From IMG/VR virus record IMGVR_UViG_3300042392_002243, positions 1 through 51,037 of that record: a DNA stretch of 51,037 bases, one strand, 5' to 3'. The translations under genes and the position numbers were made by a program. A model generated the notes under the pieces. It searched no databases. It was not told the DNA's origin and worked only from the letters and a program-made list of their open reading frames with translations. Below are positions 594 to 50,903 of this stretch, piece by piece. Numbering within the stretch: position 1 is the first letter of the stretch; each line of letters begins with the position of its first letter. Origin of the DNA: a virus.

Positions 594-601
594 TATTTAT
601 A
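594..601 (-). promoter_or_regulatory. Late promoter TATAAATA
   Basis: Perfect T4-type late -10 element on the minus strand, ending 5 nt before the ATG at 588. It lies back to back with the late element at 607-614 on the other strand. Confidence 0.75.
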
Positions 602-606
602 CCTAA

Positions 607-614
607 CATAAATA
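607..614 (+). promoter_or_regulatory. Late promoter CATAAATA
   Basis: Seven of eight positions match TATAAATA; it ends 5 nt before the ATG at 620. It is the predicted promoter of the baseplate operon 620-9224. Confidence 0.7.
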
Positions 615-619
615 ATTAT

Positions 620-889
620 ATGGAATTTGACCAGTTAGTAGAAGAAATTCTTTTAGAAAAATCTGCAAGATGTACCAAAGTAACTGGTCAGCAGTCTTCT
701 ACTAGGTCAGACAAGAAGTATATGCGCTGCGTAAAGACGAAAACAGGCTATAAAAGAGTCCACTATGGTGATCCTAATTTACGCATAAAGAAATCTAATC
801 CAAAACGTCGTAAGTCCTTTAGAGCTAGACATAAGTGCTCTACTGCTAAACCTGGAACAGCTCGTTATTTTTCATGTAAAAACTGGTAA
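620..889 (+). CDS. Small basic Cys-containing late protein, conserved in T4-like marine phages
   Basis: 89 residues, very basic in the C-terminal half (KKSNPKRRKSFRARHKC around 57-73), with cysteines at 18, 37, 73 and 86 that could form a metal site or disulfides. The first 13 residues (MEFDQLVEEILLE) form a short acidic amphipathic helix ending in L-L-E, which matches the L/I-x-E cleavage rule of the T4 prohead protease gp21. The C-terminal KSNPKRRKSFRARH...CKNW block is, from memory, recurrent in marine T4-like phages, without known function. First gene of the late baseplate operon. Basic composition fits DNA or capsid binding; that is inference. Confidence 0.75.
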   Translation: MEFDQLVEEILLEKSARCTKVTGQQSSTRSDKKYMRCVKTKTGYKRVHYGDPNLRIKKSNPKRRKSFRARHKCSTAKPGTARYFSCKNW

Positions 890-891
890 TT

Positions 892-1059
892 ATGCCCTAT
901 ATAATAAAAGGTAAATGTGTATACAGAAAAGATACTGGTAAAAAGGTAGGTTGTTCTAAAAACGCAGGTAAAGCTAAAAAATACCTCAAAAAACTTTATA
1001 TGGTAGAGAGTAATTTCGATAAAACCTTTAATTTAATAGTTAATCAATATGGCAATTAA
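892..1059 (+). CDS. Small basic protein (55 aa), unknown function
   Basis: Starts with ATG two nt after the stop at 889 and ends in TAA at 1057-1059, overlapping the gp25 start by 11 nt, so it looks translationally coupled on both sides. The sequence begins MPYIIKGKCVYRKDTGKK and continues with a KVGCSKNAGKAKKYLKKLY block. Small phage proteins with a similar V-Y-x-K-x-x-G...KKYLxxLY layout exist in marine T4-like phages as far as I recall; function unknown. Without it the 889-1049 interval would be an unexplained gap in a tightly packed operon. Confidence 0.7.
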   Translation: MPYIIKGKCVYRKDTGKKVGCSKNAGKAKKYLKKLYMVESNFDKTFNLIVNQYGN

Positions 1060-1534
1060 TTTAAATATAGCAAAACCTAATAAAGAAATAGAAAACTCTA
1101 CTAAAAGAGGTTATATATACAAGGATGTAAATTTAGATTTAGTGTATGGTTATACAACTAATGGTGAACTCTTCTCATCAAACGAAAAAAAAGACCTTAA
1201 AGCCATATACGACGAGGCTGCAATTTTAAACTCTCTAAAAAATATATTAACTACTTCACCAGGTGAAAAACTTCTTAATCCTCTATTTGGTTTAGATTTA
1301 AGAGACTATCTCTTTGAATCTGTTACTGAAACTAAAGGTTACTTTTTAGCAGATGAAATATTAACCGGATTACCACTACAAGAAGAGCGAATAGTAGTTA
1401 ATTTTGTTGATGTTGTTGTTAATCCTGATGATCAAGAATATATTATAAATTTAGATATAGGAATTCCTACTCTTAATATACCAAGTATATCTTTGAGAGG
1501 TGTATTAAATAATGATGGATACATATTTACATAA
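1049..1534 (+). CDS. 25: Baseplate wedge protein gp25
   Basis: 161 residues. Matches the gpW/gp25 lysozyme-like baseplate family: a central A-x-x-x-SLKNILTTSPGEKLLNPLFG block at about residues 58-81 followed by the L-R-D-Y-L-F-E segment (84-90). In T4, gp25 is a sheath-initiator-like wedge component that contacts gp6, gp53 and the first sheath ring. It is slightly longer than T4 gp25 because of an N-terminal extension. The stop codon overlaps the start of gene 6 by one base (TAATG), so the two are probably translated together. Confidence 0.9.
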   Translation: MAINLNIAKPNKEIENSTKRGYIYKDVNLDLVYGYTTNGELFSSNEKKDLKAIYDEAAILNSLKNILTTSPGEKLLNPLFGLDLRDYLFESVTETKGYFLADEILTGLPLQEERIVVNFVDVVVNPDDQEYIINLDIGIPTLNIPSISLRGVLNNDGYIFT

Positions 1535-3345
1535 TGAACGCTAAAAATTTTACAGAATACAACTTACCTTTAAATGCTTATGTAACCTTTGATGCTACAA
1601 CATTAAAGGATCTAATCATTAATAGACTAAACGAAAGCGAAGTTTTTAAAGATCAAGTTTATGAAGGTTCAAACATTAACGCTTTTATTGATGTTGTAGC
1701 ATACATGTATCATGTACTATTATTTTATTTGAATAACACCTCTTCAGAGTCCACTTTCACTACAGCTACTTTATATGAAAATATGAATAAGCTTGTTAGT
1801 AATTTAGGTTATAAGCCTACAGGTAAGCAGACATCTATGGGTGTTTTATCTCTATCAGGTGGGACTACTCTACCTACAGGTGTGTTAACACTTAAGAGAT
1901 TTTCAACTTTATTTGCTAACGGACAACCATTTACTATTACGAGAGATATAAGCTTTGATAAGCCGCAAGCCGGTGCAGTAGAAAAAGTATATCCTGATAA
2001 TAGCTTTATATATCAAGGGTCAATAACAGAACATCCTCAATATACAGCAACAGGAGAAGAATTTGAGATAGTTACTATAGTTGACTCTTCACCAATAGAT
2101 AATAGTCAAACATTTATTGCTGATAATACGTTTTCTATTTTTGTATATGATAATACAAATCGTATATGGTCGGAATGGCAAGAGACATCATCACTATTTT
2201 TAGAGGATAGTGTTGCAAAGAAGTATGAAAAAAAATTAAACGAGAATGGTAACTATGAGTTTAAGTTTGGAAACAATATCAATGGACTTAAATTAAGAGC
2301 AGGGGACTTAATACAAATCTACTATGTAGTTTCAAATGGAACAAACGGCGTGGTGGGACCTAATGTGTTGTTTGGTAATCAGTTTACTCTATATAATTCT
2401 CCTGCTTTTACAGGCATTTCAAATAACATATACGATACTGACTTTAACTTCATAACTCCTTCGTTACTCCCGAGTGTAATAGTTACTAATCCAAACGCTT
2501 CAACTCCTATAGGTGAGGGCGAGACTGTAGAGGAGATAAGAAAGAATGCGCCTAAATTCTTTGCATCACAGAATAGACTTGTAACGAGAGATGATTATAC
2601 GAACTTTATCGATAAAAATTACAACTTGGTTGTAAAAAGTGTAAAAGTACTGGATAATACTACATATACATCAAGATTTCTTAAATATTTTTATACTATA
2701 GGATTAAACAAGCCTAATGACGATACTAGAGTTCTATTTAACCAGGTGGCTTTTTCAAATTCTACATCATTTAACAATGTATATTTGTTCTGTGTACCTA
2801 AAAACGCTACTATAATTAACGAAACTCTTCCGAACTACTTAAATTTTGCACAAAAACAGGTTATTATAAATGCTTGTAACAATAGCAAGGATATAACACA
2901 CAATGTCGTATGCGTCGATCCTATTTATAAGGCTTTTGATATAGGGTTAAGGTTGTCAGGTGAAGATAACTGTATTGATTTTAGAGATTCAACAGCGTTA
3001 GTGATTAAGAAGTTTTCTAATTCAAATATAAGTGATTATAAAATAATCGATAGAGTATCTAAAGTAATAACAGATTATTTTAATAATATTGAGTTAGGTC
3101 AAGTAATAAATTTAGGTGATTTATCAAATAATATAAAAAATCTCGATGGAGTTAAAGATGTTCTCACTAGACGAACAGATACAAACTACGAAGTTCCAAA
3201 AATAAACGTTGTAGCATGGAATCCTATTTATGAAGAAGATGATGTTGTATATACATCTCAAAACTACACCCTTGAGGATTTTCAATACGCATTCTTCTAC
3301 GAGATAAGTAATCTTAAACAAAAAATAATAGTAGAAAATGAGTAA
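1534..3345 (+). CDS. 6: Baseplate wedge protein gp6 (baseplate J-like)
   Basis: 603 residues, close to T4 gp6 (660). The N-terminus has the conserved R-L-N-E-S-E-V-F-K-D pattern followed by an INAFIDVVAYMYHVLLFYLNN helix (residues 48-68) typical of gp6/gpJ wedge proteins; the middle contains GEGETVEEIRKNAPKFFASQNRLVTRDDY (about 327-355), a hallmark of the baseplate J family. In T4, gp6 dimers build the inner ring that holds the wedges together and triggers dome-to-star opening. Follows gp25 and overlaps the next gene by 8 nt. Confidence 0.92.
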   Translation: MNAKNFTEYNLPLNAYVTFDATTLKDLIINRLNESEVFKDQVYEGSNINAFIDVVAYMYHVLLFYLNNTSSESTFTTATLYENMNKLVSNLGYKPTGKQTSMGVLSLSGGTTLPTGVLTLKRFSTLFANGQPFTITRDISFDKPQAGAVEKVYPDNSFIYQGSITEHPQYTATGEEFEIVTIVDSSPIDNSQTFIADNTFSIFVYDNTNRIWSEWQETSSLFLEDSVAKKYEKKLNENGNYEFKFGNNINGLKLRAGDLIQIYYVVSNGTNGVVGPNVLFGNQFTLYNSPAFTGISNNIYDTDFNFITPSLLPSVIVTNPNASTPIGEGETVEEIRKNAPKFFASQNRLVTRDDYTNFIDKNYNLVVKSVKVLDNTTYTSRFLKYFYTIGLNKPNDDTRVLFNQVAFSNSTSFNNVYLFCVPKNATIINETLPNYLNFAQKQVIINACNNSKDITHNVVCVDPIYKAFDIGLRLSGEDNCIDFRDSTALVIKKFSNSNISDYKIIDRVSKVITDYFNNIELGQVINLGDLSNNIKNLDGVKDVLTRRTDTNYEVPKINVVAWNPIYEEDDVVYTSQNYTLEDFQYAFFYEISNLKQKIIVENE

Positions 3346-5563
3346 TATAGATACTGTATTTAGTTACTTCGACGTACGTGATTACACTAACAGGCTTACC
3401 GTTAGTAGCTACGCGTTACCATTTACTCCCCTTACATTTTTACCTAGACTTGATAAACTAGCAGATTTCGACACGGGTACAGGCATCACTAAGGTAGGTG
3501 TAGGTGTTCTTTCTCGCAAAAGAATGATTTGGGATTTCGGCGACGGTACTAATATAGAGGCAGTTACAGCTAGACATTATTTTAAAGAGCCGGGTAGATA
3601 TAAAGTAACTTGCTACTTATATGATAAAATTGGTGGCAGTTATTACGATATATACAGTCAAACGGTTAATATTTACAATTATATTCCCGACTCTATAATA
3701 CTTAAAGCCGCTAACACTACTAATACATTTCTAACAGCTGGCGTCTACACCAGTCCAATTAATGTTATTAGATCTACTTCATGGCAGTATTACGAAATAC
3801 CTTATGTAGAGCCGGTAGATGATAGTAATTTCTTTCAACCTCCTTCAAAAGCTCCAAAGCTACCCATACAAGAACCTTCACATAGACAATTTAATTTAGA
3901 CAAGCTAATAAATATAATGACATATATTTCCGGAGCTAGTGCTAGTGGATATTTTGATAATAATCTCAATAGCACACACTACGGTCATTTATATCCTTAT
4001 TCTTCAATTTTTATAAAGTCTAGTAGCATCGATAACTTAACAGAATATATAGAAGTATCCTCCTTCACTACTACATCAACTCCAATATACATTAAGTTAT
4101 CCGGAACTAAAATAGTAAATGGTAAAAGCGACGATATAGATTCTTTCTTTTGCGGAACCACAGGATCGCAGTTAATATACTACAAAGATGATTTTCCTTC
4201 CATTAGAACCGATATTCTATTAGGAGTAGAAGCTGACACCTTAAAGCCTTATAGTAATACTAGTACAGTAGGCTTTAAAACCACTACTGCTAAGAATAAA
4301 AACTACAGTCAATTATCTATTACCTCAAACGGCTTAGACAGTGAAGGTACTATACAAGGACCAACAAAAAAGAAGCTACCTCTATTGTTTCCTATAGATC
4401 AAAATAAATTCTCTAATAGTAAGATTGGAATAGTTATAAAAGTAAAAGATTCTAATAACTTCACGATTAAAGACATACCGCTTATAAATTACCCGTCTAG
4501 CTTTACATCCTTTAAATTGTATAATTCTGGTGGAAGTTATAATTTTGATATAGTTTCAGATTTTGGCTCCCTCTCTTCTCTTACAAAGGGTGGATTCTGG
4601 AAAGGATATATTATTCCTTATACAAAAACGCCTCTGCTCAATGTAACACTTTCTGCTACAGTAGTAGTTGAGGGCGTATCAGTACAAGGAGCATCAAATA
4701 CATTTAATATATACCCATCAGGCGGAATATATGGAATTGCAAAAAGAGGAGAAGATATAGACTTTAAGCAAACCTTTGAAGATATAGCAATACAGCCTTT
4801 GTTCTTAGATAAAACGATACTATTTAATGAATTTTTAGGGACCGTTTTTGGTGATATAGACTCTATACAGGACAGTATAGGTAAGGTAACTTACGAAAAA
4901 ATTAAAAACTTTGTTGATAATAATGCTACGCTAGATTATAGCAATATTGATCAACTTATTTCTATCTTAGAGACCATAAATCAGAACGAGCAAGTCTTTA
5001 GCAGTACTAACTTTAACGTACCTAAAGAGTTAAAGAGATTAGTAGACTTGCTATCAATAAATCATTCACGATTATTCGGCGCAACTAATAAGTTTTCTAA
5101 AAACTTTGATAGATTTGGTTATTTTGACAATGAACTTTACGGAAAAAATTTAGGTGAGCCAGTATCTATAAGCTATACAGTTACTGCAGGTAGACATCTA
5201 GTAGCATATGAAAAATTCAGTGAAGTTTACACATATTTAAATACGTATATACCGCTTTGCGCTTCAAATATATCAGTAGGATCAAATAACACATTTAGTT
5301 TATCTTCTTATAACGATACATGGGGGTGGGGATTAATTTTACCATCTGATGGGTACGGTACAAATCTACCAGTATTCTATAACTTTTACACATATAACCC
5401 GGAAGTAGACGGTACCATAGAGGAAAGCGTAATAAACTTTTCGGATAAGAACACGACCTTAGCTTTTAGTAATTCTTCCTATACCGAGTGGTCGAAGGAA
5501 AGCGGGATAATATCTAATATAGTTTCACAAAAGCTATATGATAAGCTAGATTTATTTGTGTGA
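3338..5563 (+). CDS. Baseplate structural protein with PKD domain
   Basis: 741 residues. Residues about 60-115 form a PKD-like beta-sandwich with the signature WDFGDGT followed by H-Y-F-K-E-P-G-R-Y-K-V. The central region is Ser/Thr-rich beta structure; the C-terminal region (about 470-740) is more alpha-helical, with a Y-x-T-V-T-A-G-R-H segment. Position directly after gp25 and gp6 is that of T4 gene 7/8-type wedge genes, but there is no clear T4 homologue by eye. PKD domains usually mediate protein or carbohydrate contacts, so it may present peripheral adhesins. Its ATG overlaps the end of gene 6. Confidence 0.7.
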   Translation: MSNIDTVFSYFDVRDYTNRLTVSSYALPFTPLTFLPRLDKLADFDTGTGITKVGVGVLSRKRMIWDFGDGTNIEAVTARHYFKEPGRYKVTCYLYDKIGGSYYDIYSQTVNIYNYIPDSIILKAANTTNTFLTAGVYTSPINVIRSTSWQYYEIPYVEPVDDSNFFQPPSKAPKLPIQEPSHRQFNLDKLINIMTYISGASASGYFDNNLNSTHYGHLYPYSSIFIKSSSIDNLTEYIEVSSFTTTSTPIYIKLSGTKIVNGKSDDIDSFFCGTTGSQLIYYKDDFPSIRTDILLGVEADTLKPYSNTSTVGFKTTTAKNKNYSQLSITSNGLDSEGTIQGPTKKKLPLLFPIDQNKFSNSKIGIVIKVKDSNNFTIKDIPLINYPSSFTSFKLYNSGGSYNFDIVSDFGSLSSLTKGGFWKGYIIPYTKTPLLNVTLSATVVVEGVSVQGASNTFNIYPSGGIYGIAKRGEDIDFKQTFEDIAIQPLFLDKTILFNEFLGTVFGDIDSIQDSIGKVTYEKIKNFVDNNATLDYSNIDQLISILETINQNEQVFSSTNFNVPKELKRLVDLLSINHSRLFGATNKFSKNFDRFGYFDNELYGKNLGEPVSISYTVTAGRHLVAYEKFSEVYTYLNTYIPLCASNISVGSNNTFSLSSYNDTWGWGLILPSDGYGTNLPVFYNFYTYNPEVDGTIEESVINFSDKNTTLAFSNSSYTEWSKESGIISNIVSQKLYDKLDLFV

Positions 5564-5575
5564 TTAGTCCTAGCA

Positions 5576-5583
5576 AATAAATA
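5576..5583 (+). promoter_or_regulatory. Late promoter AATAAATA
   Basis: Late-type -10 element ending 6 nt before the ATG at 5590, in the 26-nt gap after the preceding gene. The GG immediately before the ATG is too close to act as a normal ribosome site. Confidence 0.65.
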
Positions 5584-5589
5584 TATAGG

Positions 5590-8517
5590 ATGAGTAGTGT
5601 GATTATCTTTAATGATATAGAAGTAAAGGACTCTGTAATAAGTAGCGGTGAGACCACTACTACAAAAGATAATACCGCACCCTTCAGCTTTCTTGAGTTT
5701 ATAACTAATACCGGTGTAGATTATTCTCCAGAGCAATACAATAAATTCTATTTATACTATTTAGAAAAATGGGCTGATTATAAAAACTCTTCAGCTACTA
5801 ACGACACTATAAAGTTTACAGATCTATATATCGACTTCTTAAAAGAATTAACGTTAACGTATTCAACTCAACAAGAACAAAGATTCCTCTCTACTTTAGA
5901 CTATACAAATCCAGTAGATTTAGATGTTGCGATACCGTTTTATGTTGAAAAAATAAGACAAGTTATTTTGTTTTATAAGGAAAAGCGTGATACAGCAAAG
6001 TTTGTAATAGAAAGAAACAAAATAAAGGGTACTTCTTTATCAGTAGAAAGAGCCTTATATGAAAAAATTTACGATTACGTATTTGCATCACAAAATAATC
6101 CTTTATATAGCACTGTTGATTTTTCTCTATCTGGATTACAAAGCTCTCTTAAAATTGATCTTCAGGAATTTGTAGATGTATACTCAGAATATTTTGACCT
6201 ACCAGTAGGAACTGATCCCTTCACTGCGGTGAATAGAGAGGATATAAATGTAAATTTATTTTTCGATGATCCGTTTGCTGTATTTAGAAATGAAATATTT
6301 TTAAGTGAAATACCTCTCGCTGTAAACGCGTCTATTAGCTTTAACGAGGCTTGCGATCCTACGAATCCGGTTACTCTATTAAAAAATGAATGTGAGAATA
6401 AATCAGGATTTACAGATGATGAAAAGACAGCATTAAAAATAAAATATCTCGAGAAGTATATGGGTGTCGATTTACACTATATCGACACTACTGCAACTCC
6501 ACCAGTATCAGGTGTTTTATTTAGAGCTGAAACCCCCACCAACAATATTCAGAATTTACAAAACGTATATACACCTACAGCTGAATCAAATCAAATAAAA
6601 CTCTTAAGAGATATAGGACTCTTTTTCAAGCCTGACAAAACTGGTATATTTCAATTAAATTCTAATAGTTATACCTATGCTATAGATCCTAATAAAATAG
6701 AGAGTGGTAAAATTTATATATACCCTGATCCTAGCATTTACGGTAACGTAACTATAAACAAACAAACAGAATATCCTTTAATATTCACTTATGACAATCG
6801 TGTAGATATTAAAAATGTCTCATCATCCTTCTCTTCAGGTGACCCTGATATATCTAACACCGATCAAACCTTTTCACCGTATTACTCTCGCGAGCAATCA
6901 ACACTAAGAACACAGGCTAAAGATACAGAGTATAGCTTAAACTTTAACGACCTGTATAATAAAGGGTATATTACTAAGTATCAAACAGATATTTACGGCA
7001 ACGAGTACGCATTATTTAAAGACAACTTCGGACAGACCTTTAAAGATATTGAGGAATATGAAACTCAGCCAGTATTAAATCTTTTATTAAACGGACATGC
7101 ATTTTATGATAGAAAAGAAGGGTTTGAGTTTGATTATTCTATTTCATCTAGAGAAGGCAATACTGTTAGATCAGGTTTATCTACATTAACAGTAAATTAT
7201 CCGTTTTCGCCGAGCTCCCCAACCTTAACACCGAGCTTTATATTAAGTGGATCACCTTGGTTTTTATATTTTAGAGAATTTTTACCTTATCAAGAGCTAA
7301 ACTACTCGGATGGGTTTATAGAGTCAGTTCCATATACGAAAAATTACATAGGTGCGTTTAGAGACGGCGGTGGATTTACCTTTGTCGATGGAACGAAGCT
7401 GCCAGATCCTATGTCATCTGATGCTCCAGGGTTTCCAGGCTCTAATAGTGATGTATTCTATTATCAACTTCTTGTAAATGCAACAGGATCTAAACCAACA
7501 GACGCAGTAATTGTAACACAAGCATCAGTTAATATAACAGACCAGAGTGGGTTAGATTTACAAACAGAACCTATTTACGATTATGATTGCGGCTACTTTA
7601 CCGATGTAATAAAATTAGATAATGACTACAATTATGGTAGCTCATACAACTATTACGATAATATATTTGATAACTCTAAAACTATTATTAGTTCGATCAC
7701 AGGTAATGATACCTATCGCGCCATGACTTATAAACAAGAGCTTGAAGGTAAGTTGTTTGTTAAGAATGCTACAAAGGCATACTCACAACCTGTTTCAGCG
7801 GCTCTTAATGCTATTTTTGGTAAGTATTCAAGCAATATAACAAGCGAAGTCTACGAGGCGCCAAAAAATATAGAGATATTTAATGATAGTATATGTATCG
7901 AGACTACTAATTTTTTAGTAATAGATAAAATTAAATACGAAGAGGGTGAGTTTATAACCGAATCAACAAAAAATAACGCATTTACGTTAAGTAGTAAGGA
8001 TCTTAGTGTTTTCTCAAATCGATTCTATAAAGAGAAAGACAATACTCTAATCTTTTGCACAATCCAGCAAACTGAAACTTTATCTGCTCGTAATAGTAAA
8101 GGTATATACCCAAAAATATATCAGTTTGATTTAAATACGAATACAACCAAGACTCTATACCCTAAAACTACAGATCTAACAACCTTATCAAGCGTGTTTA
8201 ACTTAAGCTCTGTTTTTACTGGTGACTTTAATATTAATATTGTAAGCGTTGAGCGACCCGTCTTAACTTATAACACCTTCAACGATGTATATAAGCTAAC
8301 ATACATAGCAGTAGACAATAATAATTACTTCCACATATTTGATATTGAATTTGACATTATTAACGACGAGGTGAAATTCTTAGGAACTAGATTTTACAAA
8401 GCTGATAAAAAATATCTAACAACTAGCTTTACTAACAGCAATACTATATTTACTAATATTAATGCAATTTCAGGTAGTTACACTCTAAATACTAACTCTG
8501 GAGTACTCTCTCTATGA
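5590..8517 (+). CDS. Large baseplate wedge-type protein (gp7-like position)
   Basis: 975 residues. Residues 30-165 form a mainly helical module (FYLYYLEKWADYKN, DLDVAIPFYVEKIRQV, FVIERNKIKGTSLSVERAL) whose K-G-T-x-x-S-V-E segment resembles the K-G-T helical element seen in T4 gp7 and P2 gpI-type baseplate proteins. The rest is beta-rich with many Tyr, Asn and Ser. T4 gp7 is 1032 residues and also lies near gp6, so this is the best gp7 candidate, but only one module supports it. It has its own late promoter and its last codons overlap the next ATG (ATGA). Confidence 0.6.
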   Translation: MSSVIIFNDIEVKDSVISSGETTTTKDNTAPFSFLEFITNTGVDYSPEQYNKFYLYYLEKWADYKNSSATNDTIKFTDLYIDFLKELTLTYSTQQEQRFLSTLDYTNPVDLDVAIPFYVEKIRQVILFYKEKRDTAKFVIERNKIKGTSLSVERALYEKIYDYVFASQNNPLYSTVDFSLSGLQSSLKIDLQEFVDVYSEYFDLPVGTDPFTAVNREDINVNLFFDDPFAVFRNEIFLSEIPLAVNASISFNEACDPTNPVTLLKNECENKSGFTDDEKTALKIKYLEKYMGVDLHYIDTTATPPVSGVLFRAETPTNNIQNLQNVYTPTAESNQIKLLRDIGLFFKPDKTGIFQLNSNSYTYAIDPNKIESGKIYIYPDPSIYGNVTINKQTEYPLIFTYDNRVDIKNVSSSFSSGDPDISNTDQTFSPYYSREQSTLRTQAKDTEYSLNFNDLYNKGYITKYQTDIYGNEYALFKDNFGQTFKDIEEYETQPVLNLLLNGHAFYDRKEGFEFDYSISSREGNTVRSGLSTLTVNYPFSPSSPTLTPSFILSGSPWFLYFREFLPYQELNYSDGFIESVPYTKNYIGAFRDGGGFTFVDGTKLPDPMSSDAPGFPGSNSDVFYYQLLVNATGSKPTDAVIVTQASVNITDQSGLDLQTEPIYDYDCGYFTDVIKLDNDYNYGSSYNYYDNIFDNSKTIISSITGNDTYRAMTYKQELEGKLFVKNATKAYSQPVSAALNAIFGKYSSNITSEVYEAPKNIEIFNDSICIETTNFLVIDKIKYEEGEFITESTKNNAFTLSSKDLSVFSNRFYKEKDNTLIFCTIQQTETLSARNSKGIYPKIYQFDLNTNTTKTLYPKTTDLTTLSSVFNLSSVFTGDFNINIVSVERPVLTYNTFNDVYKLTYIAVDNNNYFHIFDIEFDIINDEVKFLGTRFYKADKKYLTTSFTNSNTIFTNINAISGSYTLNTNSGVLSL

Positions 8518-11617: not shown

Positions 11618-11625
11618 TATTTATG
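11618..11625 (-). promoter_or_regulatory. Late promoter CATAAATA
   Basis: Minus-strand late element ending 6 nt before the ATG at 11611; it drives the inverted two-gene fibre unit. Confidence 0.7.
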
Positions 11626-11659: not shown

Positions 11660-11667
11660 AATAAATA
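11660..11667 (+). promoter_or_regulatory. Late promoter AATAAATA
   Basis: Plus-strand late element ending 7 nt before the GTG start at 11675; divergent from the element at 11618-11625. Confidence 0.65.
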
Positions 11668-17026: not shown

Positions 17027-17034
17027 TATAAATA
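17027..17034 (+). promoter_or_regulatory. Late promoter TATAAATA
   Basis: Perfect late element in the 19-nt gap between genes; ends 7 nt before the ATG at 17042. Confidence 0.75.
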
Positions 17035-20552: not shown

Positions 20553-20714
20553 ATGAATGAAGTAATAGTTGAAGGTCTAGAACCGAACGACTTTGTAGTT
20601 CTTGAGAAAATTCTTAAAACATATAAGGTTTCTCTAGAAAGCGATGTGTCGTTTGACGATATATTAAATCTACACAATAAGGTACGACAGGTAATAGATT
20701 ATCTAGAGGAATAA
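20553..20714 (+). CDS. Small acidic protein, unknown function
   Basis: 53 residues from the ATG at 20553, chosen over an in-frame TTG at 20517 that would overlap the fibre gene by 31 nt. Predicted fully helical with Leu/Val heptad-like spacing (NDFVVLEKILKTYKV, LNLHNKVRQVIDYLE), consistent with a small coiled-coil. It sits among fibre genes, where small helical proteins are sometimes fibre chaperones or anchors; that is guesswork. Confidence 0.6.
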   Translation: MNEVIVEGLEPNDFVVLEKILKTYKVSLESDVSFDDILNLHNKVRQVIDYLEE

Positions 20715-20717
20715 ATA
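20710..20717 (+). promoter_or_regulatory. Late promoter AATAAATA
   Basis: Overlaps the stop codon of the preceding small gene and ends 6 nt before the GTG at 20724, which decides the start of the next gene. Confidence 0.6.
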
Positions 20718-20936: not shown

Positions 20937-20944
20937 GATAAATA
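20937..20944 (+). promoter_or_regulatory. Late promoter GATAAATA
   Basis: Ends 6 nt before the ATG at 20951; overlaps the end of the preceding gene. Confidence 0.65.
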
Positions 20945-21799: not shown

Positions 21800-21806
21800 A
21801 TAAATA
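21799..21806 (+). promoter_or_regulatory. Late promoter AATAAATA
   Basis: Immediately follows the stop of the lectin-like gene and ends 7 nt before the ATG at 21814. Confidence 0.65.
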
Positions 21807-26199: not shown

Positions 26200-26207
26200 A
26201 ATAAATA
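26200..26207 (+). promoter_or_regulatory. Late promoter AATAAATA
   Basis: Ends 5 nt before the ATG at 26213 in the 49-nt gap after the repeat fibre gene. Confidence 0.65.
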
Positions 26208-28045: not shown

Positions 28046-28053
28046 TATTTATG
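28046..28053 (-). promoter_or_regulatory. Late promoter CATAAATA
   Basis: Minus-strand late element ending 6 nt before the ATG at 28039; only 6 nt from the plus-strand late element at 28060. Confidence 0.7.
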
Positions 28054-28059
28054 CAATTG

Positions 28060-28067
28060 AATAAATA
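28060..28067 (+). promoter_or_regulatory. Late promoter AATAAATA
   Basis: Plus-strand late element ending 5 nt before the ATG at 28073; back to back with 28046-28053. Confidence 0.65.
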
Positions 28068-30928: not shown

Positions 30929-31256
30929 AATTATATTTAGTACCACTATCTATTTGTGGAATACCTCTTTCAATAAGAGTTGTAACTACTACTTCAATAG
31001 AGGTAGTTTTAAGAGAAAAGTTTTTTGGGAATAATCTTCCACCATCGCTAAATTCAAACATTTTCTCACTCTTAAAATCTCTGTTTTCATAACATGTAAC
31101 AAAAACTGAAGTATTACCTGGATCGATCATTACGGTCCATTTACGTGGATCAGACTGAGCATAATTATTACAAATCTTCCATACATTAAATCCGCTATCT
31201 TTAAGACGCTTTACAAAGTACGAAAGAGTGGTAATTTTATTTTTATTAATATTCAT
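30918..31256 (-). CDS. Conserved phage protein next to the sliding clamp
   Basis: 112 residues, alpha/beta. Opens with a helix (T-L-S-Y-F-V-K-R-L-K-D-S-G-F), then strand pairs containing D-P-R-K-W-T-V-M-I-D-P-G-N-T-S-V-F-V-T-C-Y and a C-terminal helix (TTSIEVVVTTLIERGI). I recall similar small proteins beside gene 45 in marine T4-like phages but cannot name a function. Its ATG overlaps the clamp stop (ATGA). Confidence 0.62.
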   Translation of the reverse strand: MNINKNKITTLSYFVKRLKDSGFNVWKICNNYAQSDPRKWTVMIDPGNTSVFVTCYENRDFKSEKMFEFSDGGRLFPKNFSLKTTSIEVVVTTLIERGIPQIDSGTKYNYEL

Positions 31257-34633: not shown

Positions 34634-34641
34634 TATTTATT
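34634..34641 (-). promoter_or_regulatory. Late promoter AATAAATA
   Basis: Minus-strand late element ending 6 nt before the GTG at 34627, in the 30-nt gap after helicase gp41. It implies a late input into the DHHA1-like/SSB/clamp/primase stretch. Confidence 0.6.
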
Positions 34642-35980: not shown

Positions 35981-36007
35981 ATTATAACTTACCTTTCCAT
36001 TTTTCAA
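35981..36007 (-). promoter_or_regulatory. Early sigma70-type promoter of gp41
   Basis: TTGAAA (36002-36007), 15-nt spacer, TATAAT (35981-35986), 6 nt to the GTG at 35974. The predicted transcript starts at the start codon. Confidence 0.65.
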
Positions 36008-36638
36008 GGAACCACCTTTGACCCTCATTAAACTCCTCTGTAAACTCTTTCAATCCTGGAGAAGCATGAGTGATCATAATATCTGAAACGCCTAGTTTTA
36101 AACCTTCTTTATGGCATGAAAGACTGTAATCTAAATCATAAAAGTGAAATCCTGCAGGATTGGTTTCGTCGAATCTTACCTTTGTAAAAGCTGTTTTATT
36201 AATACAAAGAAAAACTCCATCTAGTAGCAAGACCCTTTTAGGATAAGAGCCGAAAAACGTCATAGATTTATTTTTTTCATCTCCATGTGCTACTGCCCCA
36301 TGGAGCTTACCAGAACCGAATCCTCCCCCCATAATGTGCCATAGTGCAGGTTCCTGTAATTTACATTCCGTACTACCTGCAACTCCAATTACATCAAAAG
36401 ATTCCATAATAGAAGGTAATCTATACGCTAGATCTGATTCTATAATTACATCGTCATGACACAGGACGATAGCGTCAAAATTCTCCTCAATAGCAAAATC
36501 AATAGCCTTGTTATATACCTTAGGTAGAGATTCAGTGTTATTTTCCTTAAAAATAAAGCTATTATAAGCAGAGTGATTTTTATTTAGTAGGGTGTTCTTC
36601 CTACTACCTTTAGTTGCAGAAAAATAAAATATATTCAT
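35982..36638 (-). CDS. Glycosyltransferase, GT2-like
   Basis: 218 residues from the ATG at 36638, which overlaps the upstream amidotransferase stop (ATGA); the longer frame to 36686 is not used. The GT-A layout is visible: N-T-E-S-L-P-K-V-Y-N-K-A-I-D-F-A, then I-V-L-C-H-D-D-V-I-I (the H-D-D replaces the D-x-D), G-V-A-G-S-T, and F-H-F-Y-D-L-D-Y-S-L-S-C-H before a C-terminal R-W-F-L-E-K-W. Acceptor unknown: modified phage DNA, a virion protein or host surface glycan. Translationally coupled to the glutamine amidotransferase. Confidence 0.75.
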   Translation of the reverse strand: MNIFYFSATKGSRKNTLLNKNHSAYNSFIFKENNTESLPKVYNKAIDFAIEENFDAIVLCHDDVIIESDLAYRLPSIMESFDVIGVAGSTECKLQEPALWHIMGGGFGSGKLHGAVAHGDEKNKSMTFFGSYPKRVLLLDGVFLCINKTAFTKVRFDETNPAGFHFYDLDYSLSCHKEGLKLGVSDIMITHASPGLKEFTEEFNEGQRWFLEKWKGKL

Positions 36639-37300
36639 AAAAATAAAAATGGTGATTTTGTTTCGAAATGATTTACTACCTCCCAAGATTTGTAGTCCTT
36701 AAGCATTAAAATCGTACCCTCTGGAACCAGTTTAAATCCCTCACCTCCTAAGGTTGAAAAGTCGCCGTTATCGTTATAATGCAAGATGGAGCCCTGTCTT
36801 GCAATATAAACATCATTAGAGTCAGTATCAATCATACATAACGCAAAAGTACCTTCAAGTAAGCTTAACACTCTTTTAATTGTTTCGTGAGCAGGGCACT
36901 CGCCACTACACTCCTCTGTAAAGTGCTGTAGTAAATTTGGAATAACAGCTGTATCAACAGGATTAACATCCCAATCGATATGTTTAGCTCTTATTTCTTT
37001 ATAATTTGTTAATACTCCGTTATGAACTACGGACCAGGATAGAGATTCGAAAGGATGCGAGGTATCATAAGACCAGGTTCGTTTCGCAGACGTAGGTGCT
37101 TGAACGTGTCCAATAAAATAATTGTTTATATCGTCCAATTGAACATGATCAAAGTCAATAGTACCCTTCTTTTTAAGAACCATTTGATCACCACCACTAT
37201 TAAGACCTATCAACCCTGATGCAAAGTTACCTCTAGGTAGATTTGCTTGATATAGTACCTCAAACTTAGACGAATTATTAGCTCCAACTATAGCACACAT
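36635..37300 (-). CDS. Class II glutamine amidotransferase (Ntn-type), stand-alone
   Basis: 221 residues. Starts with M-C-A-I-V-G; after Met removal Cys2 is the nucleophile that releases ammonia from glutamine. Further family motifs: N-Y-F-I-G-H-V-Q-A-P-T-S (substrate loop), V-V-H-N-G-V-L-T-N-Y (oxyanion HNG), and D-x-x-x-V-D-T-A-V-I. This is only the glutaminase part: no sugar isomerase or synthetase domain follows, so the acceptor enzyme must be another protein. QueC, 1.8 kb away, is a candidate partner (Gat-QueC). Its ATG overlaps the stop of the HhH gene (TAATG). Confidence 0.85.
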   Translation of the reverse strand: MCAIVGANNSSKFEVLYQANLPRGNFASGLIGLNSGGDQMVLKKKGTIDFDHVQLDDINNYFIGHVQAPTSAKRTWSYDTSHPFESLSWSVVHNGVLTNYKEIRAKHIDWDVNPVDTAVIPNLLQHFTEECSGECPAHETIKRVLSLLEGTFALCMIDTDSNDVYIARQGSILHYNDNGDFSTLGGEGFKLVPEGTILMLKDYKSWEVVNHFETKSPFLFL

Positions 37301-37627: not shown

Positions 37628-37635
37628 TATAAATA
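37628..37635 (+). promoter_or_regulatory. Late promoter TATAAATA
   Basis: Perfect late element ending 6 nt before the ATG at 37642. It overlaps the probable minus-strand -10 TATATT (37632-37637) of the HhH gene. Confidence 0.78.
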
Positions 37636-40960: not shown

Positions 40961-40987
40961 ATTATATACTATATTTTTATTAATCAA
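40961..40987 (-). promoter_or_regulatory. Early sigma70-type promoter of uvsX
   Basis: TTGATT (40982-40987, overlapping the FeoA-like stop), 15-nt spacer, TATAAT (40961-40966), 6 nt to the ATG at 40954. Confidence 0.7.
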
Positions 40988-41608: not shown

Positions 41609-41622
41609 ATAGTTATATTAAT

Positions 41623-41872: not shown

Positions 41873-41898
41873 ATTATAAGATATTATTTTTAAATCAA
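41873..41898 (-). promoter_or_regulatory. Early sigma70-type promoter
   Basis: TTGATT (41893-41898), 14-nt spacer, TATAAT (41873-41878), 7 nt to the ATG at 41865. The -35 overlaps the polymerase stop codon. The spacer is short. Confidence 0.6.
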
Positions 41899-44464: not shown

Positions 44465-44498
44465 AAAGCTATTATAGCTTTACATATTATTAATTCAA
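44465..44498 (-). promoter_or_regulatory. Early promoter of DNA polymerase with palindromic -10
   Basis: TTGAAT (44493-44498), 16-nt spacer, TATAAT (44471-44476), 8 nt to the ATG at 44462. The -10 is the centre of a 17-nt perfect palindrome AAAGCTATTATAGCTTT (44465-44481), which could be an operator. T4 gp43 represses its own mRNA through a hairpin; this one would lie at the transcription start. Confidence 0.65.
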
Positions 44499-45709: not shown

Positions 45710-45725
45710 ATGTGTTATATTTACA

Positions 45726-47534
45726 TTAGTAATCCAAATAGTCAATACGCCTCGTTATACCATTTTGCTTTTCTAGGAAAATAACATCTCCAGTAACCGC
45801 TTTAACGGACTCCTTTCTGTGCGATATAACAATAGAACATTCATCTAAGGTACTAACCCTTTCCTTGAGTATCTCAGTAATTAAGTCAATGCCCTTCTCA
45901 TCAAAAGACGAATCAAATAATTCATCGTATATCGCTATATTGTAACTCACACCTCCTTGCATTCTTCTAATATCAGAAAATGCGAATAAACAAGCAAGAT
46001 CTATAGATTTACGCTCTGCACCTGAGAAATTAAAATAAGAGCATATTTTATTTTTATCATTAACAATCTGCTCTTCAAAATATTCATCAAATACGCATAC
46101 AGAATTTGAATCTAACTTTTTAAGATAGTAATACAACTTACTATTGAGAAGTTCTAGAAGTTTGTTTACTATATAAGATTTAACACCCTCTTCACTGATA
46201 ACAAACTTTACTATATCTAGAGTGCTTAGCTGTTTAGATATAGTTGAAACTATATCATTTACTTGATTAAGTCTGCTTTGTGTCTCATCAATTAAATCAT
46301 CAAACTCTGTCTTACTTTCATTTAGAGTTTCTATATCTTGTATAAGCTCATCTTGCCACTTTGTCAACTGAGTGATACGATTTGTAATATTTTCGTTATA
46401 TTGAATCTTTAAGCTAGTCTCATTTATTAATTTGTTTTTTTCCTGAATAGCTTTTTTAATTTTTAATTTTTGACTCTCTACTTCTTGTATCTTTACGCTA
46501 ATTTCTTCTACTTCTTTTGCTATAAGAATCATTTCATCTTTAAGCAATAGCTTTTCTTTATGAATATTCTCTTTATCGTGTTCTTGAATTGGTCTCAAAC
46601 AAACTGGACAACTATCACTATCTGTTCCAATCTTCTTATAAATTTCTTTCTTGTGTATAATAGTAGCTTTTTTATTAGAAGTGTCTCCTACTAATAAATT
46701 TTTTAAATCATCATTTTCGATAAGTTTATCCTCTAGTTTATCTATTGTGAGTTGAATATCATCAATGTTTTGAATATCTGAACTCTCTTGTAGCTCTTTA
46801 TTTAGCTTTTCTAGTTCAAGAGCGTTAGAGGATTGTCTTTCCAAATATAACTTACGCTTGTCTTCCTTTCTTTCAATTAATTTTTGCTTTTGATTATTAT
46901 AATTTTGAAGTGTTTTATTAATTTCATCTAACTTTGCATAATTAATATCATATTCTCTTTTAATATCATTATATTCCTGTCTCAGTGTCGAAATCATCTT
47001 ACTAAAGACCTCCATTCCGAAGATATCTTCAATAAACTTACGTTTCTCGACTTTATTTTTTGCCATAAACGGAATAGTATTATTAACCGTCATGATAACA
47101 CAGTTTTGAAAAATAGCAGGTGACGCACTCAGAACATCACATATGTATTTGGTGGTATTAGCTATGCTGTCGCGTGTTTTATCTACTCCGTCTTTATAAA
47201 CACTTACTTTAGTAGGTGTAAGTGTACGTACAATATGAAATTTATTTTTACCTTTAGGTGAATCTATATTAAATTCTAATTCTACTTGTGTTTTTCCACC
47301 TGTTATATTATTTGTAATAAGATCTTTTTTAATTTCTCTTAAAGTCTCGCCAAAAATAGCAAAGTATATAGCATCAGCCACAGTAGATTTACCTACTGCG
47401 TTCTGTCTATCGGGTTTATCTTTATTATTACCTGTTATAAGGTGTAATCCCTTTCGAAAATCAACCGAAACAACCTCATTACCAACCGATAGAAAGTTTT
47501 GAATTGTTATTTTAGTAAATGTTACCTTTTTCAT
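45726..47534 (-). CDS. 46: Recombination endonuclease subunit gp46 (Rad50/SbcC-like)
   Basis: 602 residues from the ATG at 47534, which overlaps the gp47 stop (ATGA). With gp47 it forms the Mre11/Rad50-type nuclease that resects DNA ends and supplies ssDNA for UvsX. Walker A is D-R-Q-N-A-V-G-K-S-T (about 46-55); a coiled coil at about 180-450 has its zinc hook D-S-C-P-V-C-L-R-P (about 310); the C-terminal half has the signature and D-loop (N-F-S-G-A-E-R-K-S, Y-D-E-L-F-D-S-S-F-D-E-K-G). Length is close to T4 gp46 (560). Confidence 0.94.
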   Translation of the reverse strand: MKKVTFTKITIQNFLSVGNEVVSVDFRKGLHLITGNNKDKPDRQNAVGKSTVADAIYFAIFGETLREIKKDLITNNITGGKTQVELEFNIDSPKGKNKFHIVRTLTPTKVSVYKDGVDKTRDSIANTTKYICDVLSASPAIFQNCVIMTVNNTIPFMAKNKVEKRKFIEDIFGMEVFSKMISTLRQEYNDIKREYDINYAKLDEINKTLQNYNNQKQKLIERKEDKRKLYLERQSSNALELEKLNKELQESSDIQNIDDIQLTIDKLEDKLIENDDLKNLLVGDTSNKKATIIHKKEIYKKIGTDSDSCPVCLRPIQEHDKENIHKEKLLLKDEMILIAKEVEEISVKIQEVESQKLKIKKAIQEKNKLINETSLKIQYNENITNRITQLTKWQDELIQDIETLNESKTEFDDLIDETQSRLNQVNDIVSTISKQLSTLDIVKFVISEEGVKSYIVNKLLELLNSKLYYYLKKLDSNSVCVFDEYFEEQIVNDKNKICSYFNFSGAERKSIDLACLFAFSDIRRMQGGVSYNIAIYDELFDSSFDEKGIDLITEILKERVSTLDECSIVISHRKESVKAVTGDVIFLEKQNGITRRIDYLDY

Positions 47535-48580
47535 ACAGTACACTTATTATAAAGATCTAGCGTATAGTTAAGTATATCATTTTTATCTTCTATGTCAAGA
47601 AGATTTATAAATTCCTCAATAGCGCACGTAATATCAATTCCAGATAGATCTTTATCATTGTTATCATTACTAATTTTATTATAACTCAAATCATATTCTA
47701 TTTGTAGAGCTTCAGGCTTTAGTAAATTTAACTTTGATGTAAGAATAGCTAAATCTTCTTGCGATATATTTCTGTCTACTTTAAATTTAACTATATTATT
47801 GAGAAATAATGTTTTTATTTCCGATGTAATAGTTGTAGCCTCTACAAGATCACTCAAATTAATTTTCTTATAGTGAGGTGATATAGTATTTTCAATAAAC
47901 TCATATTCTTGCGTATCAATATCAAGTATGTGATAGCCTTTAGTATTATCACAATCGCCGAAATCCATTTGAAACGGATTACCTACATACAAAATGGTGC
48001 CTGAGCCGTATTTTTTTTCATGTCTAAAGTGAAAGTGACCTGAAATAATTAAAGAACTCTTACTTAATAACTCCTTAACACTTAGACCGTCTTCACAATC
48101 CTTATATGAATTCATCTTGAACGTTTCAATTTCAAAATGACCAAAAATAATATCACTTTTTTCTATTTGTTTAGTAGAGGTACCCCACGGACACAATGTT
48201 ATTGTTTTATCAAATACACTTAATGTAGTAACCTTATCTATTACTGAGATATTCCTACTATTTTTAAAGAGAGAAAGAGAGTTAACATCAGTTCTATGTT
48301 TATAGTATATGTCATGATTACCAACTAAAGCAATAACATTAAAGTCTTCAAAAATTTTTAATATATCTGCAGATACTTGAAGTGTATTAACTGATATCTC
48401 ACTTCTATTATGATACCAGTCGCCACAGAATATAATATCCTTTATATTCTGTTTTTTGAGCTCTCTGCAAAGCCAGTTAGCCCAATTCAAAGCAATTTCA
48501 TGCCATTGAGTGCTATTAGTATGTACACCTAAGTGTAGGTCAGATATAATAGCAACTCTAGGCTTATTAATCTTGATCAT
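47531..48580 (-). CDS. 47: Recombination endonuclease subunit gp47 (Mre11/SbcD-like)
   Basis: 349 residues from the ATG at 48580 (MIKINKPRVAIISDLHLG); earlier in-frame Met codons would overlap gp55 by more than 30 nt. Phosphoesterase motifs: I-S-D-L-H-L-G (motif I), F-C-G-D-W-Y-H-N-R-S (II), L-V-G-N-H-D-I-Y-Y (III), I-I-S-G-H-F-H-F-R-H (IV) and Y-V-G-N-P-F-Q. All manganese ligands are visible. T4 gp47 is 339 residues. The 3' end couples to gene 46. Confidence 0.94.
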   Translation of the reverse strand: MIKINKPRVAIISDLHLGVHTNSTQWHEIALNWANWLCRELKKQNIKDIIFCGDWYHNRSEISVNTLQVSADILKIFEDFNVIALVGNHDIYYKHRTDVNSLSLFKNSRNISVIDKVTTLSVFDKTITLCPWGTSTKQIEKSDIIFGHFEIETFKMNSYKDCEDGLSVKELLSKSSLIISGHFHFRHEKKYGSGTILYVGNPFQMDFGDCDNTKGYHILDIDTQEYEFIENTISPHYKKINLSDLVEATTITSEIKTLFLNNIVKFKVDRNISQEDLAILTSKLNLLKPEALQIEYDLSYNKISNDNNDKDLSGIDITCAIEEFINLLDIEDKNDILNYTLDLYNKCTV

Positions 48581-49004
48581 AGAAGTCGTCATCACCATCA
48601 CCTACAGGTTTAACATAAACGAGATTGTTACATGTTTTAGGATCATTCATAATATCCTCATATACTTTCTCTCTATAGTTTTTTTCTGCTTCATGATGCC
48701 TTTTTTCCTTTTTAATACGATTAACGAACGCATTAAATGCAATCGTTGTAAAATATGAGAAAGGGTTTGACTCAGCAGCAAATTTATATTTTTTACCCTT
48801 AAGTGCTGAGTACATTTTAATAAGAGAGTCTCCTATCATGTCGTCTTTGTAAGTATAATTAATAAACGAGCTATTATAGCTTAGACCATAAGCAATTTTT
48901 TTAATATTCTCAGCAAGGTCATCAGTCAAAATATCAGATTCATAGTACTTACGTAAAGATTCTTTAAATTCGACAGGATTTACGTAGTAATTTTCTTTAG
49001 ACAT
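48567..49004 (-). CDS. 55: Late-promoter sigma factor gp55
   Basis: 145 residues. Divergent sigma70-family protein that directs host RNA polymerase to TATAAATA-type late promoters, which are abundant here. Visible: D-D-M-I-G-D-S-L-I-K-M-Y-S-A-L-K (helical region 2 type), N-P-F-S-Y-F-T-T-I-A-F-N-A-F-V-N-R-I-K-K-E-K (the region 2.4-like W-free helix). The acidic C-terminus D-D-D-F-Y-D-Q-D is a possible clamp contact, as the T4 C-terminus is. T4 gp55 is 185 residues. It has an excellent early promoter. Confidence 0.88.
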   Translation of the reverse strand: MSKENYYVNPVEFKESLRKYYESDILTDDLAENIKKIAYGLSYNSSFINYTYKDDMIGDSLIKMYSALKGKKYKFAAESNPFSYFTTIAFNAFVNRIKKEKRHHEAEKNYREKVYEDIMNDPKTCNNLVYVKPVGDGDDDFYDQD

Positions 49005-49010
49005 AACTAA

Positions 49011-49038
49011 ATTATATACTAATGTTAATTTATATCAA
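49011..49038 (-). promoter_or_regulatory. Early sigma70-type promoter of gp55
   Basis: TTGATA (49033-49038), 16-nt spacer, TATAAT (49011-49016), 6 nt to the ATG at 49004. The -10 region (TAGTATATAATTT) is identical to that of uvsX. Confidence 0.75.
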
Positions 49039-50476
49039 TATCTTTTTCGGTATATAGTATTTTTTCCGCATTATAAATTTGTTTTCTTTTTTCTGAATGC
49101 TTCATACCATAATTTAAACTATCACACAGGTCAATAATGAGGAGCTTTTTTTTATTTTTATGTAATCTCAATCCTCTACCTATCGACTGTACAGTTCTAA
49201 TAAAAGATTTACCTCCAGATACGAATAAAATATTATGAAGGTTTTTAATATTAACACCGGTAGAGAATATAGCACTTATTGCAATGCAAATTATATCATC
49301 ACTACTCTCCATGAGTTTTTTTATTTTTTCCCGCTCTTCAATTTCCACATCCCCTCTAATAAAGAAGACTCTCTTACTGGAGCATGTGTTTTTTATTACT
49401 TCAAACAAGTTTTCACCGTGTATAATATGATTAACAAGAATTAATGTATTATTAGTAAGCTTATTGCTTAATTGACCTATAAATTTGTTGCGTTTTTCGT
49501 GTGTATATATGAAACTAAGCTCATTTCTATACTCGCTGTCTGTAGTATTTGGAATAATAGGAGATACATAATTAAGATTAATTATTTTAACCTCTACATT
49601 TGTAAGATAACTCTCTAGACGAAGGTCGTGACTGTTTTTTTCATATAGAACTGGTCCAAGCTTACCTATAATAAACCATCTAGCTAGTTTATCCTCAGGT
49701 AGTGTACCTGTAAATCCGTATCTATTACTTGTTTTAATATTAGATATAATTTTACTAATCTCATTTGATGATTTTACCTTATGACACTCATCAACTACTA
49801 GCAAATCTACATATTTAACCCATTCGTTATCTTTGAACTGCGAAAGAAGTATCTGAATGTTGCATATAATGACGTTACTCGTGAAGTCTGGCTTGTTATT
49901 ACCAGTCCATTTTGTTACTTTAAATGTAGTACCGCTAGCTATAAACTCATCATACGTTTGTTGTACTAGTCCTAAATCCGGTACTATCATTATACACTTA
50001 AAAGTAGTAGCGTTGGGCGAATTTCTATAATAATTTTCAATTAGAGCAGCAGTAGTTAGCGTTTTACCGGCTCCTGTACCTAAAACACACGTACCCCAAC
50101 CGTTTTTTATAGCCTTTTCTATTACCTCTTCTTGATAGTCTCTTAATTTAAGTGAAAAATCTTTAAAAATTGGATTGGATGATCCGCAGTTAAGCGCTTC
50201 TTTAAATTTTTCAGTTAAAGTTATGTTATCTGTTATTTGATTGGATATTAAGTACTTTTTTATCTCCCAAAATAGACCTAAATCACAAAGGCCTGTAGGA
50301 GTAATAGCATATTTTCGTGTTGGTAATTTAATTCTTCTTGAACTAAATCTTTTTTGTACAAAAACAGCATTTTTATCTTCTACACTAAAATGCTCTCGAA
50401 GATTTTCATAAATATCTCTATTATCACACTTAATTATTAACTTACGATTTGTTTTAGTGTAATCAAAAGTAATCAT
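49025..50476 (-). CDS. uvsW: DNA/RNA helicase UvsW
   Basis: 483 residues (T4 UvsW is 587 with an extra N-terminal part). SF2 helicase that unwinds R-loops and branched DNA and helps to switch origin use. Walker A is L-G-T-G-A-G-K-T (132-139), with a preceding Q-like L-R-D-Y-Q; D-E-C-H (V-V-D-E-C-H-K, about 225); motif III T-G-T-L-P; motif V A-I-F-S-T-G-V-N; motif VI Q-S-I-G-R-G-L-R. ATGA overlap with uvsY, the same gene pair as in T4. Confidence 0.93.
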   Translation of the reverse strand: MITFDYTKTNRKLIIKCDNRDIYENLREHFSVEDKNAVFVQKRFSSRRIKLPTRKYAITPTGLCDLGLFWEIKKYLISNQITDNITLTEKFKEALNCGSSNPIFKDFSLKLRDYQEEVIEKAIKNGWGTCVLGTGAGKTLTTAALIENYYRNSPNATTFKCIMIVPDLGLVQQTYDEFIASGTTFKVTKWTGNNKPDFTSNVIICNIQILLSQFKDNEWVKYVDLLVVDECHKVKSSNEISKIISNIKTSNRYGFTGTLPEDKLARWFIIGKLGPVLYEKNSHDLRLESYLTNVEVKIINLNYVSPIIPNTTDSEYRNELSFIYTHEKRNKFIGQLSNKLTNNTLILVNHIIHGENLFEVIKNTCSSKRVFFIRGDVEIEEREKIKKLMESSDDIICIAISAIFSTGVNIKNLHNILFVSGGKSFIRTVQSIGRGLRLHKNKKKLLIIDLCDSLNYGMKHSEKRKQIYNAEKILYTEKDIDIN

Positions 50477-50868
50477 AACTGCTCAAGCTTTTGTATTTCA
50501 ATAATATTTTTAATATCATACCCCATACCTGACATAATTTTTTCAACTTTTTCGAGATACTCTACAATAAATTCATACTCTTTTATAGAATCAGCAATAG
50601 ATGTTAACTCTTCTGTAGCTTCTGCAGCTATTTCTGCTGTCTGTTGAGTTAGTTTAACTGGAGCTTCAGCTATAATTTTTGTTACAAGTACTTTTTTAAG
50701 GTTTTTCTTTTTTTTATGTAAAGATTGTAGAGTTATTTTTGCATCAATTAATCTAGCCGCCCAAAAATGCTTACGTGAAGGTAACTTAAGTTGTATTTCT
50801 TTAATATTAAAATCAGTAATTAAAAGATCACCATTAATTTCTTCTTTATATCTTTTTAGCAATTCCAC
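50473..50868 (-). CDS. uvsY: UvsY-like recombination mediator
   Basis: 131 residues with GTG start; T4 UvsY is 137. It loads UvsX onto gp32-coated ssDNA. Evidence is position next to uvsW, size, a central basic segment (K-K-K-K-N-L-K-K-V) and the C-terminal helix Y-D-I-K-N-I-I-E-I-Q-K-L comparable to the F-A-I-K-H-I-Q-D of T4 UvsY. Ends ATGA-coupled to uvsW. The early promoter is 6 nt upstream. Confidence 0.72.
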   Translation of the reverse strand: MELLKRYKEEINGDLLITDFNIKEIQLKLPSRKHFWAARLIDAKITLQSLHKKKKNLKKVLVTKIIAEAPVKLTQQTAEIAAEATEELTSIADSIKEYEFIVEYLEKVEKIMSGMGYDIKNIIEIQKLEQL

Positions 50869-50874
50869 AGAATT

Positions 50875-50903
50875 ATTATAAATACTTTAGTAAGTGAAAT
50901 CAA
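50875..50903 (-). promoter_or_regulatory. Early sigma70-type promoter of uvsY
   Basis: TTGATT (50898-50903), 17-nt spacer, TATAAT (50875-50880), 6 nt to the GTG at 50868. The -10 overlaps the plus-strand late element at 50877-50884. Confidence 0.72.
50877..50884 (+). promoter_or_regulatory. Late promoter TATAAATA
   Basis: Perfect plus-strand late element, overlapping the minus-strand -10 of uvsY. It ends 9 nt before the GTG at 50894. Confidence 0.7.

Follow-up and report, generated by a model that had tools for sequence, protein, structure and literature searches.

Late and early promoters placed at the start codon point to leaderless mRNAs in a deep lineage of the T4 superfamily

The late promoter box of bacteriophage T4, which is read by the sigma factor gp55, extends from −13 to −6, counted from the RNA start (PMC1524935; consistent with PMC2988020). 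By our count 27 of 30 T4 boxes lie 14–40 nt upstream of the gene and Shine-Dalgarno (SD) words precede 51% of the genes, which bears out a preliminary description of the DNA studied here, where T4 late mRNAs were taken to carry leaders with ribosome sites. This DNA is a 51,037-nt stretch of a virus (IMG/VR record IMGVR_UViG_3300042392_002243, hereafter the window), located at about 20,787–71,823 of G001, a longer contig (110.6 kb) from the same phage; its relatives, referred to below as the clade, are present on >300 viral contigs. As in T4, the window contains the same 7–8 bp box (TATAAATA) with an AT-rich spacer and without a −35 box, encodes a gp55 homologue, and has late structural genes on both strands. 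In contrast to T4, only 5–7 nt separate the box from the start codon and SD words are no more frequent than background, an arrangement which suggests that the mRNA begins with the start codon itself.

A comparable geometry is known from bacteria. In the TA-led genes of Actinobacteria, Deinococcus-Thermus and Aquificae the −10 box precedes the start codon by about 12 bp, a layout read in silico as leaderless; such genes constitute on average 19–39% of the genes in those groups (PMC3160421). This in-silico signal is accepted as a marker of leaderless transcripts (PMC3160421), and the same kind of signal is found here, with the promoter −10 element about 10–12 nt upstream of the start codon. The bacterial genes rely on cellular sigma factors, whereas the phage lineage uses the same geometry both for sigma-70 and for its own late sigma factor. 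The leaderless mRNA of phage lambda, which likewise starts at AUG, is that of a single gene, cI, and not a rule of the genome. It was in lambda that leaderless initiation was first found (PMC3160421). No report of leaderless late mRNAs for a phage of the T4 superfamily was found in the open literature, subscription journals being mostly outside the search. Neither leaderless mRNAs nor gp55 promoters are new in themselves; what is new is their combination as a genome-wide rule of a phage lineage.

Among described phages, the late boxes of HTVC008M, a cultured Pelagibacter phage (KC465899), and of its IMG/VR relative G018 are a mixture of leaderless-looking and leadered ones. About seven TATAAATAGTNNNATG-type boxes of HTVC008M, about half of its detected late promoters, end exactly 5 nt before an ATG, as in the clade (e.g. 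ATGs 7562, 31132, 49760 and 142360), and the ATGs 49760 and 75559, both so placed, are annotated gene starts in KC465899. Its remaining late boxes are followed by leaders of 18–36 nt, mostly containing AGGAG. Since the same box occurs either at 5 nt or with such a leader, the box is not itself a translation signal. Unlike the clade, HTVC008M thus follows a mixed strategy, with SD words at 48% of its genes, and it is grouped with cyanophages in the polB tree. The idea that the arrangement is unique to the clade is disproved by this phage. Standard late-promoter searches in pelagimyophages were unsuccessful according to their authors (PMC7029224). The mixed late programme of pelagiphages may comprise two translational classes within one infection. 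Other phages run through the same code as the clade are leadered or nearly so, namely T4, KVP40, S-PM2, P-SSM2, C48C1, the intermediate metagenomic phage G016, and, with very few boxes each, Syn9 and the Sinorhizobium phages phiM12 and phiM9.

We strongly infer from the layout of the DNA that transcription in the clade is leaderless, and assign a probability of about 0.86 to leaderless mRNAs being its standard route for expressing promoter-proximal genes. The leaderless strategy put forward in the preliminary description for the late genes of the window is supported by the clade-wide distance plot and the low SD content, and it is widened here to the clade and to early promoters, although HTVC008M shows that it is not confined to the clade.

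In the window, 14 of the 53 called genes are preceded by an ATAAATA that ends 5, 6 or 7 nt ahead of the start codon; the distance d is given below as the number of nucleotides between the end of the box and the start codon. All 14 elements listed earlier are present at these distances on either strand (588, 11611, 28039 and 34627 being minus-strand genes), and the statement that no SD sequence precedes these genes is correct, the AGG at 5590 abutting the ATG and thus being too close to act. The motif is not over-represented in the window overall, with 32 sites against 43.9 expected, and the signal is therefore carried by position. In 1,000 dinucleotide shuffles of the upstream regions the mean number of boxes at d=5–7 was 0.21 and the maximum 3, and among the other ATG/GTG triplets, about 2,212 in number, a single one has a box at this distance (Fisher p about 3e-23). 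When all permutations of A5T2 were counted by the same rule, the true motif reached 13 and every other one at most 4. Among sites up to 60 nt ahead of window genes, none falls at the typical T4-like distance of 14–36 nt.

The distance plot proposed in the preliminary description was made on nine long clade contigs (G001, G004, G007, G010, G012, G015, G019, G020 and G021) and on 80 polB-centred and 80 portal-centred loci, and the sharp peak appeared on G001 and on the eight further genomes. The clade late box is the T4-type gp55 box NATAAATA, together with CTAAATA and related variants. When the nine contigs and the portal-centred set are pooled, ATAAATA is found at d=3, 4, 5, 6, 7 and 8 in 9, 1, 146, 64, 23 and 21 of 362 cases, respectively, and at 16–40 nt in only 38 of them. 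For CTAAATA the pooled counts at d=4, 5, 6 and 7 are 0, 48, 25 and 2 of 128, and the variants CTAAATA, TTAAATA and GTAAATA all peak at 5 with none at 4. The open-reading-frame caller takes the next in-frame start and so has a slight bias to short distances, but this does not create the peak, because the same method gives none on T4 and other phages.

With the box at −13 to −6, as in T4, a distance of 5 nt puts the +1 position on the A of the ATG, while at d=4, the nearly empty class, a T4-type transcript would lose the A of the AUG. At the d=5 late sites, position −1 is T in 83% and C in 12% of cases and position 0 is A in 94%; a pyrimidine followed by a purine is the usual transcription initiator. 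The start codons of divergent gene pairs are 31–33 nt apart, which leaves no room for two T4-type leaders. Upstream of gp21 the layout is kept in seven genomes despite divergence of the surrounding sequence.

The late boxes of the window are distributed over both strands. The first divergent pair consists of the ATAAATA at 594..600 (−), d=5 before the start codon 588(−), and the box at 608..614 (+), d=5 before ATG 620(+), the two start codons being 31 nt apart. The box at 5577..5583 (+), d=6, precedes ATG 5590(+) of a 975-aa protein, whose family members in relatives also have d=6. Boxes at 11618..11624 (−), d=6, and 11661..11667 (+), d=7, precede ATG 11611(−) of an S74-chaperone tail protein and GTG 11675(+) of a 1112-aa protein, and one at 17028..17034 (+), d=7, precedes ATG 17042(+) of a Gp10_C baseplate protein. 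They are followed by boxes at 20711..20717 (+), d=6 before GTG 20724(+), where five of seven family members have a late box at 5–8 nt; at 20938..20944 (+), d=6 before ATG 20951(+); at 21800..21806 (+), d=7 before ATG 21814(+) of a tail collar fibre protein; and at 26201..26207 (+), d=5 before ATG 26213(+). In the second divergent pair, with start codons 33 nt apart, the boxes at 28046..28052 (−), d=6, and 28061..28067 (+), d=5, precede ATG 28039(−) and ATG 28073(+), and the latter box is kept upstream of orthologues in relatives. The last two are located at 34634..34640 (−), d=6 before GTG 34627(−), and at 37629..37635 (+), d=6 before ATG 37642(+). A weaker case is the variant CTAAATA at 30934..30940 (−), d=5 before ATG 30928(−), in a family with two late calls.

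The gp55 homologue (48567..49004, −) is a late sigma factor of 145 aa, identified through PHROG 234 (E=4.6e-23) and a tblastn match to gp55 of HTVC008M, and is the presumed reader of the late boxes. It is present in the window and in six long clade contigs.

The early genes, including those for DNA polymerase, primase, gp55, UvsX and UvsY, display another layout: TTG, about 17 nt, TATAAT, 6 nt and the start codon. When the words preceding clade genes were counted de novo, TTGA-type words at 29–31 nt and the words TATAAT and TATACT at d=6 stood out in addition to the late box. The −10 box, TATAAT or TATACT, occupies −12 to −7, and when its presence at d=6 is the sole selection, TTG emerges at −34 to −32 relative to the start codon. 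A −10 box at d=6 together with a −35 TTG indicates a sigma-70 promoter, in which +1 also coincides with the start codon. At these sites position −1 is T in 72% of cases and position 0 is A in 62% and G in 35%. In both promoter classes, then, the known +1 coincides with the initial base of the start codon or lies no more than 2 nt away.

TATAAT boxes of this kind are found upstream of the gp55 gene (49011..49016, −; 6 nt before the ATG, with the −35 TTGATA 16 nt upstream), where the layout is similar in most aligned relatives, and of the gp43 DNA polymerase gene (44471..44476, −; 8 nt before the ATG, with TTGAAT 16 nt upstream), where it is kept in all eight aligned clade genomes while the surrounding sequence has diverged. 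Others precede the UvsY-like gene (50875..50880, −; 6 nt before a GTG, with TTGATT 17 nt upstream), ATG 41865(−) (41873..41878, −; 7 nt) and the UvsX-like recombinase (40961..40966, −), where the box is 6 nt before ATG 40954, an in-frame start downstream of the first TTG of the open reading frame. Weaker cases are the TATAAT of the gp41-like helicase (35981..35986, −), 6 nt before the alternative start GTG 35974, and a probable TAATAT (41615..41620, −), 6 nt before ATG 41608(−) and with the −35 TTGAAA. The site at 50877–50884 (+), with which the range of the preliminary description ended, is rejected as a leaderless promoter: the next plausible start is ~50 nt downstream, and on the opposite strand the site coincides in part with the early −10 box of gene 50868(−). 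It is probably fortuitous.

The two kinds of boxes are distributed over different gene families: 29 families have at least one late box, 18 have at least one early box, and none has both. The late class contains the prohead protease (in seven of seven genomes), the tail sheath, fibres and other virion-region genes, while the early class contains polymerase, primase, UvsX, UvsY and FolE. As the families never mix, the boxes sort by expression class, as promoters do, and not by a general need of translation.

SD-like words precede 4–9% of the genes in eight clade genomes, compared to 3–11% in a control interval, which corresponds to background. Internal genes, which have no promoter of their own, are likewise depleted of G at −8 to −12, and these downstream cistrons must therefore be read without SD. 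Among 960 genes without a late box, 372 have their start between −30 and +5 of the preceding stop codon, which is compatible with coupling. AUG is preferred as start codon, with ATG in 67 of 79 cases in five relatives and in 22 of 25 in G001. Initiation of the Bacteroidota type, with A at −3, −6 and −12, was considered, and the pattern is not seen in the clade. As a separate observation, codon 2 of the d=5 late genes has G at the first position in 43% and C at the second in 62% of cases (GCN, CCN or TCN type), which could stem from Met removal or serve as a downstream signal in leaderless initiation.

According to the proposed mechanism, the host RNA polymerase would use sigma-70 early and the phage gp55 late and would begin transcription at the A (or G) that opens the start codon, giving mRNAs that begin with 5′-AUG, sometimes GUG. 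The 5′-terminal AUG would be recognized by the 70S ribosome or by 30S/IF2 without SD pairing, and promoterless downstream cistrons would probably be reached by translational coupling or another SD-independent route. In this the phage most likely imitates its host, for which leaderless initiation with little SD would be the norm.

Several points weigh against leaderless expression as the standard route. The +1 positions are carried over by analogy from T4 and E. coli; boxes at d=6–7 would mean leaders of 0–2 nt, and the minority at 8–13 nt would mean short leaders. G015, the basal member, shows some SD, 17% against 6% in the control. The sliding clamp gp45 gave no tblastn match, while the clamp loader gp44 was found, and neither bS21, IF3 nor an S1 domain was detected above cut-off in the clade phages, the one sub-threshold match being to bS21 in G012.

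Among the alternatives, the least improbable, although still unlikely, is that the late promoters are real but initiate differently from T4, with +1 a few nucleotides downstream or with upstream promoters, so that the transcripts have leaders or the genes another start codon. The boxes located 8–13 nt from the start, and the fact that the assumed +1 is borrowed from T4, speak for it. However, the starts are conserved at the protein level (MALK/MSLK in gp21, MSK in gp55), a +1 at the A agrees with the steep drop at d=4 and with the pyrimidine at −1, and a start of transcription further downstream would leave the start codon incomplete. It is more doubtful still that the AT-rich element is not a promoter but a translation-initiation signal, acting through an unstructured or Kozak-like context. 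The element is indeed close to the start codon, and AT-rich upstream regions aid SD-less initiation. Yet the exact T4 gp55 box is used and gp55 is encoded, the late and early boxes differ, with −35 in the early ones only and with families that never mix, HTVC008M has the same box with long SD-bearing leaders, and most permuted AT motifs show much lower enrichment.

Chance occurrence in an AT-rich genome would be suggested by the GC content of the window, 30–37%, and by its 32 ATAAATA sites, a number not above expectation, but shuffling gives 0.2 boxes in place of 14, and the equally AT-rich T4 and P-SSM2 are without the pattern. With the clade data, chance is already refuted and has practically no probability left.

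In our reading, the window is part of a lytic phage in a deep, uncultured lineage of the T4 superfamily. Homologues of gp43, gp41/gp61, gp32, gp46/47, UvsX/Y, gp20, gp17, gp18 and gp21 place it in this superfamily. Proteins of the window include a gp43-type polymerase, a gp41-like helicase, a primase, a gp32-like SSB, SbcC/gp46, gp47, UvsX, UvsY and a UvsW-like helicase, as well as a baseplate wedge, Gp10_C and tail collar fibres. The closest annotated phage polymerases are only ~33% identical to that of the window, and in the polB tree the clade forms a long branch with full support, separate from T4/KVP40, cyanophages, pelagiphages and C48C1. In some relatives the polB match extends over 3.6–3.8 kb as against 2.6 kb (L041:7860-11639; L042:1440-5219; L087:3542-7106), an in-gene insertion of ~1–1.2 kb which may be an intein or an intron. 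The large terminase gene of G007 (L102:16117-19967) matches in three separated pieces, which also suggests inserted elements.

A search of GTDB genomes with the clade polB profile gave no match. In a separate polB scan, the most distant member recovered nothing but itself. WhiB is absent, which leaves an actinobacterial host without support. The aldehyde dehydrogenase of G015 gave only identities of 25–38%, spread over many phyla, as a clue to the host. Its gene adjoins a saccharopine-dehydrogenase-like gene (L122:7692-9230(−) and 6041-7132(−)), and both are apparently auxiliary metabolic genes of lysine-type metabolism. The tmRNA gene called by ARAGORN in G015 (L119:5-397(−)) has an unusual tag and may be false. 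A 7-deazaguanine DNA-modification pathway is suggested by QueC-like, glutamine-amidotransferase-like, FolE (GTP cyclohydrolase), QueD and 4Fe-4S proteins in one phage (window 39121-39870(−) and 36635-37300(−); L092:18963-19700; L093:1493-2128; L093:2940-3701). The tail/baseplate region of the window encodes a 741-aa protein with a PKD domain (3338-5563(+)).

The leaderless layout improves the calling of gene starts, as for 588, 20724 and 40954, and may explain why late promoters have been missed in such phages. It is also a hint about hosts that can be read from sequence. Tentatively, and with a likelihood somewhat short of even, the lineage has dropped leaders and SD in all temporal classes, the ribosomes of abundant aquatic hosts would initiate mainly on leaderless mRNAs, and the start codon would serve as +1 throughout the switch from sigma-70 to gp55. 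HTVC008M with Candidatus Pelagibacter constitutes a cultured system that makes leaderless late transcription testable. T4 is the textbook example of regulated phage transcription, with leadered late mRNAs, and a deep relative that apparently starts both its early and its late mRNAs at the AUG would mean that the T4 programme is compatible with another regime of translation initiation.

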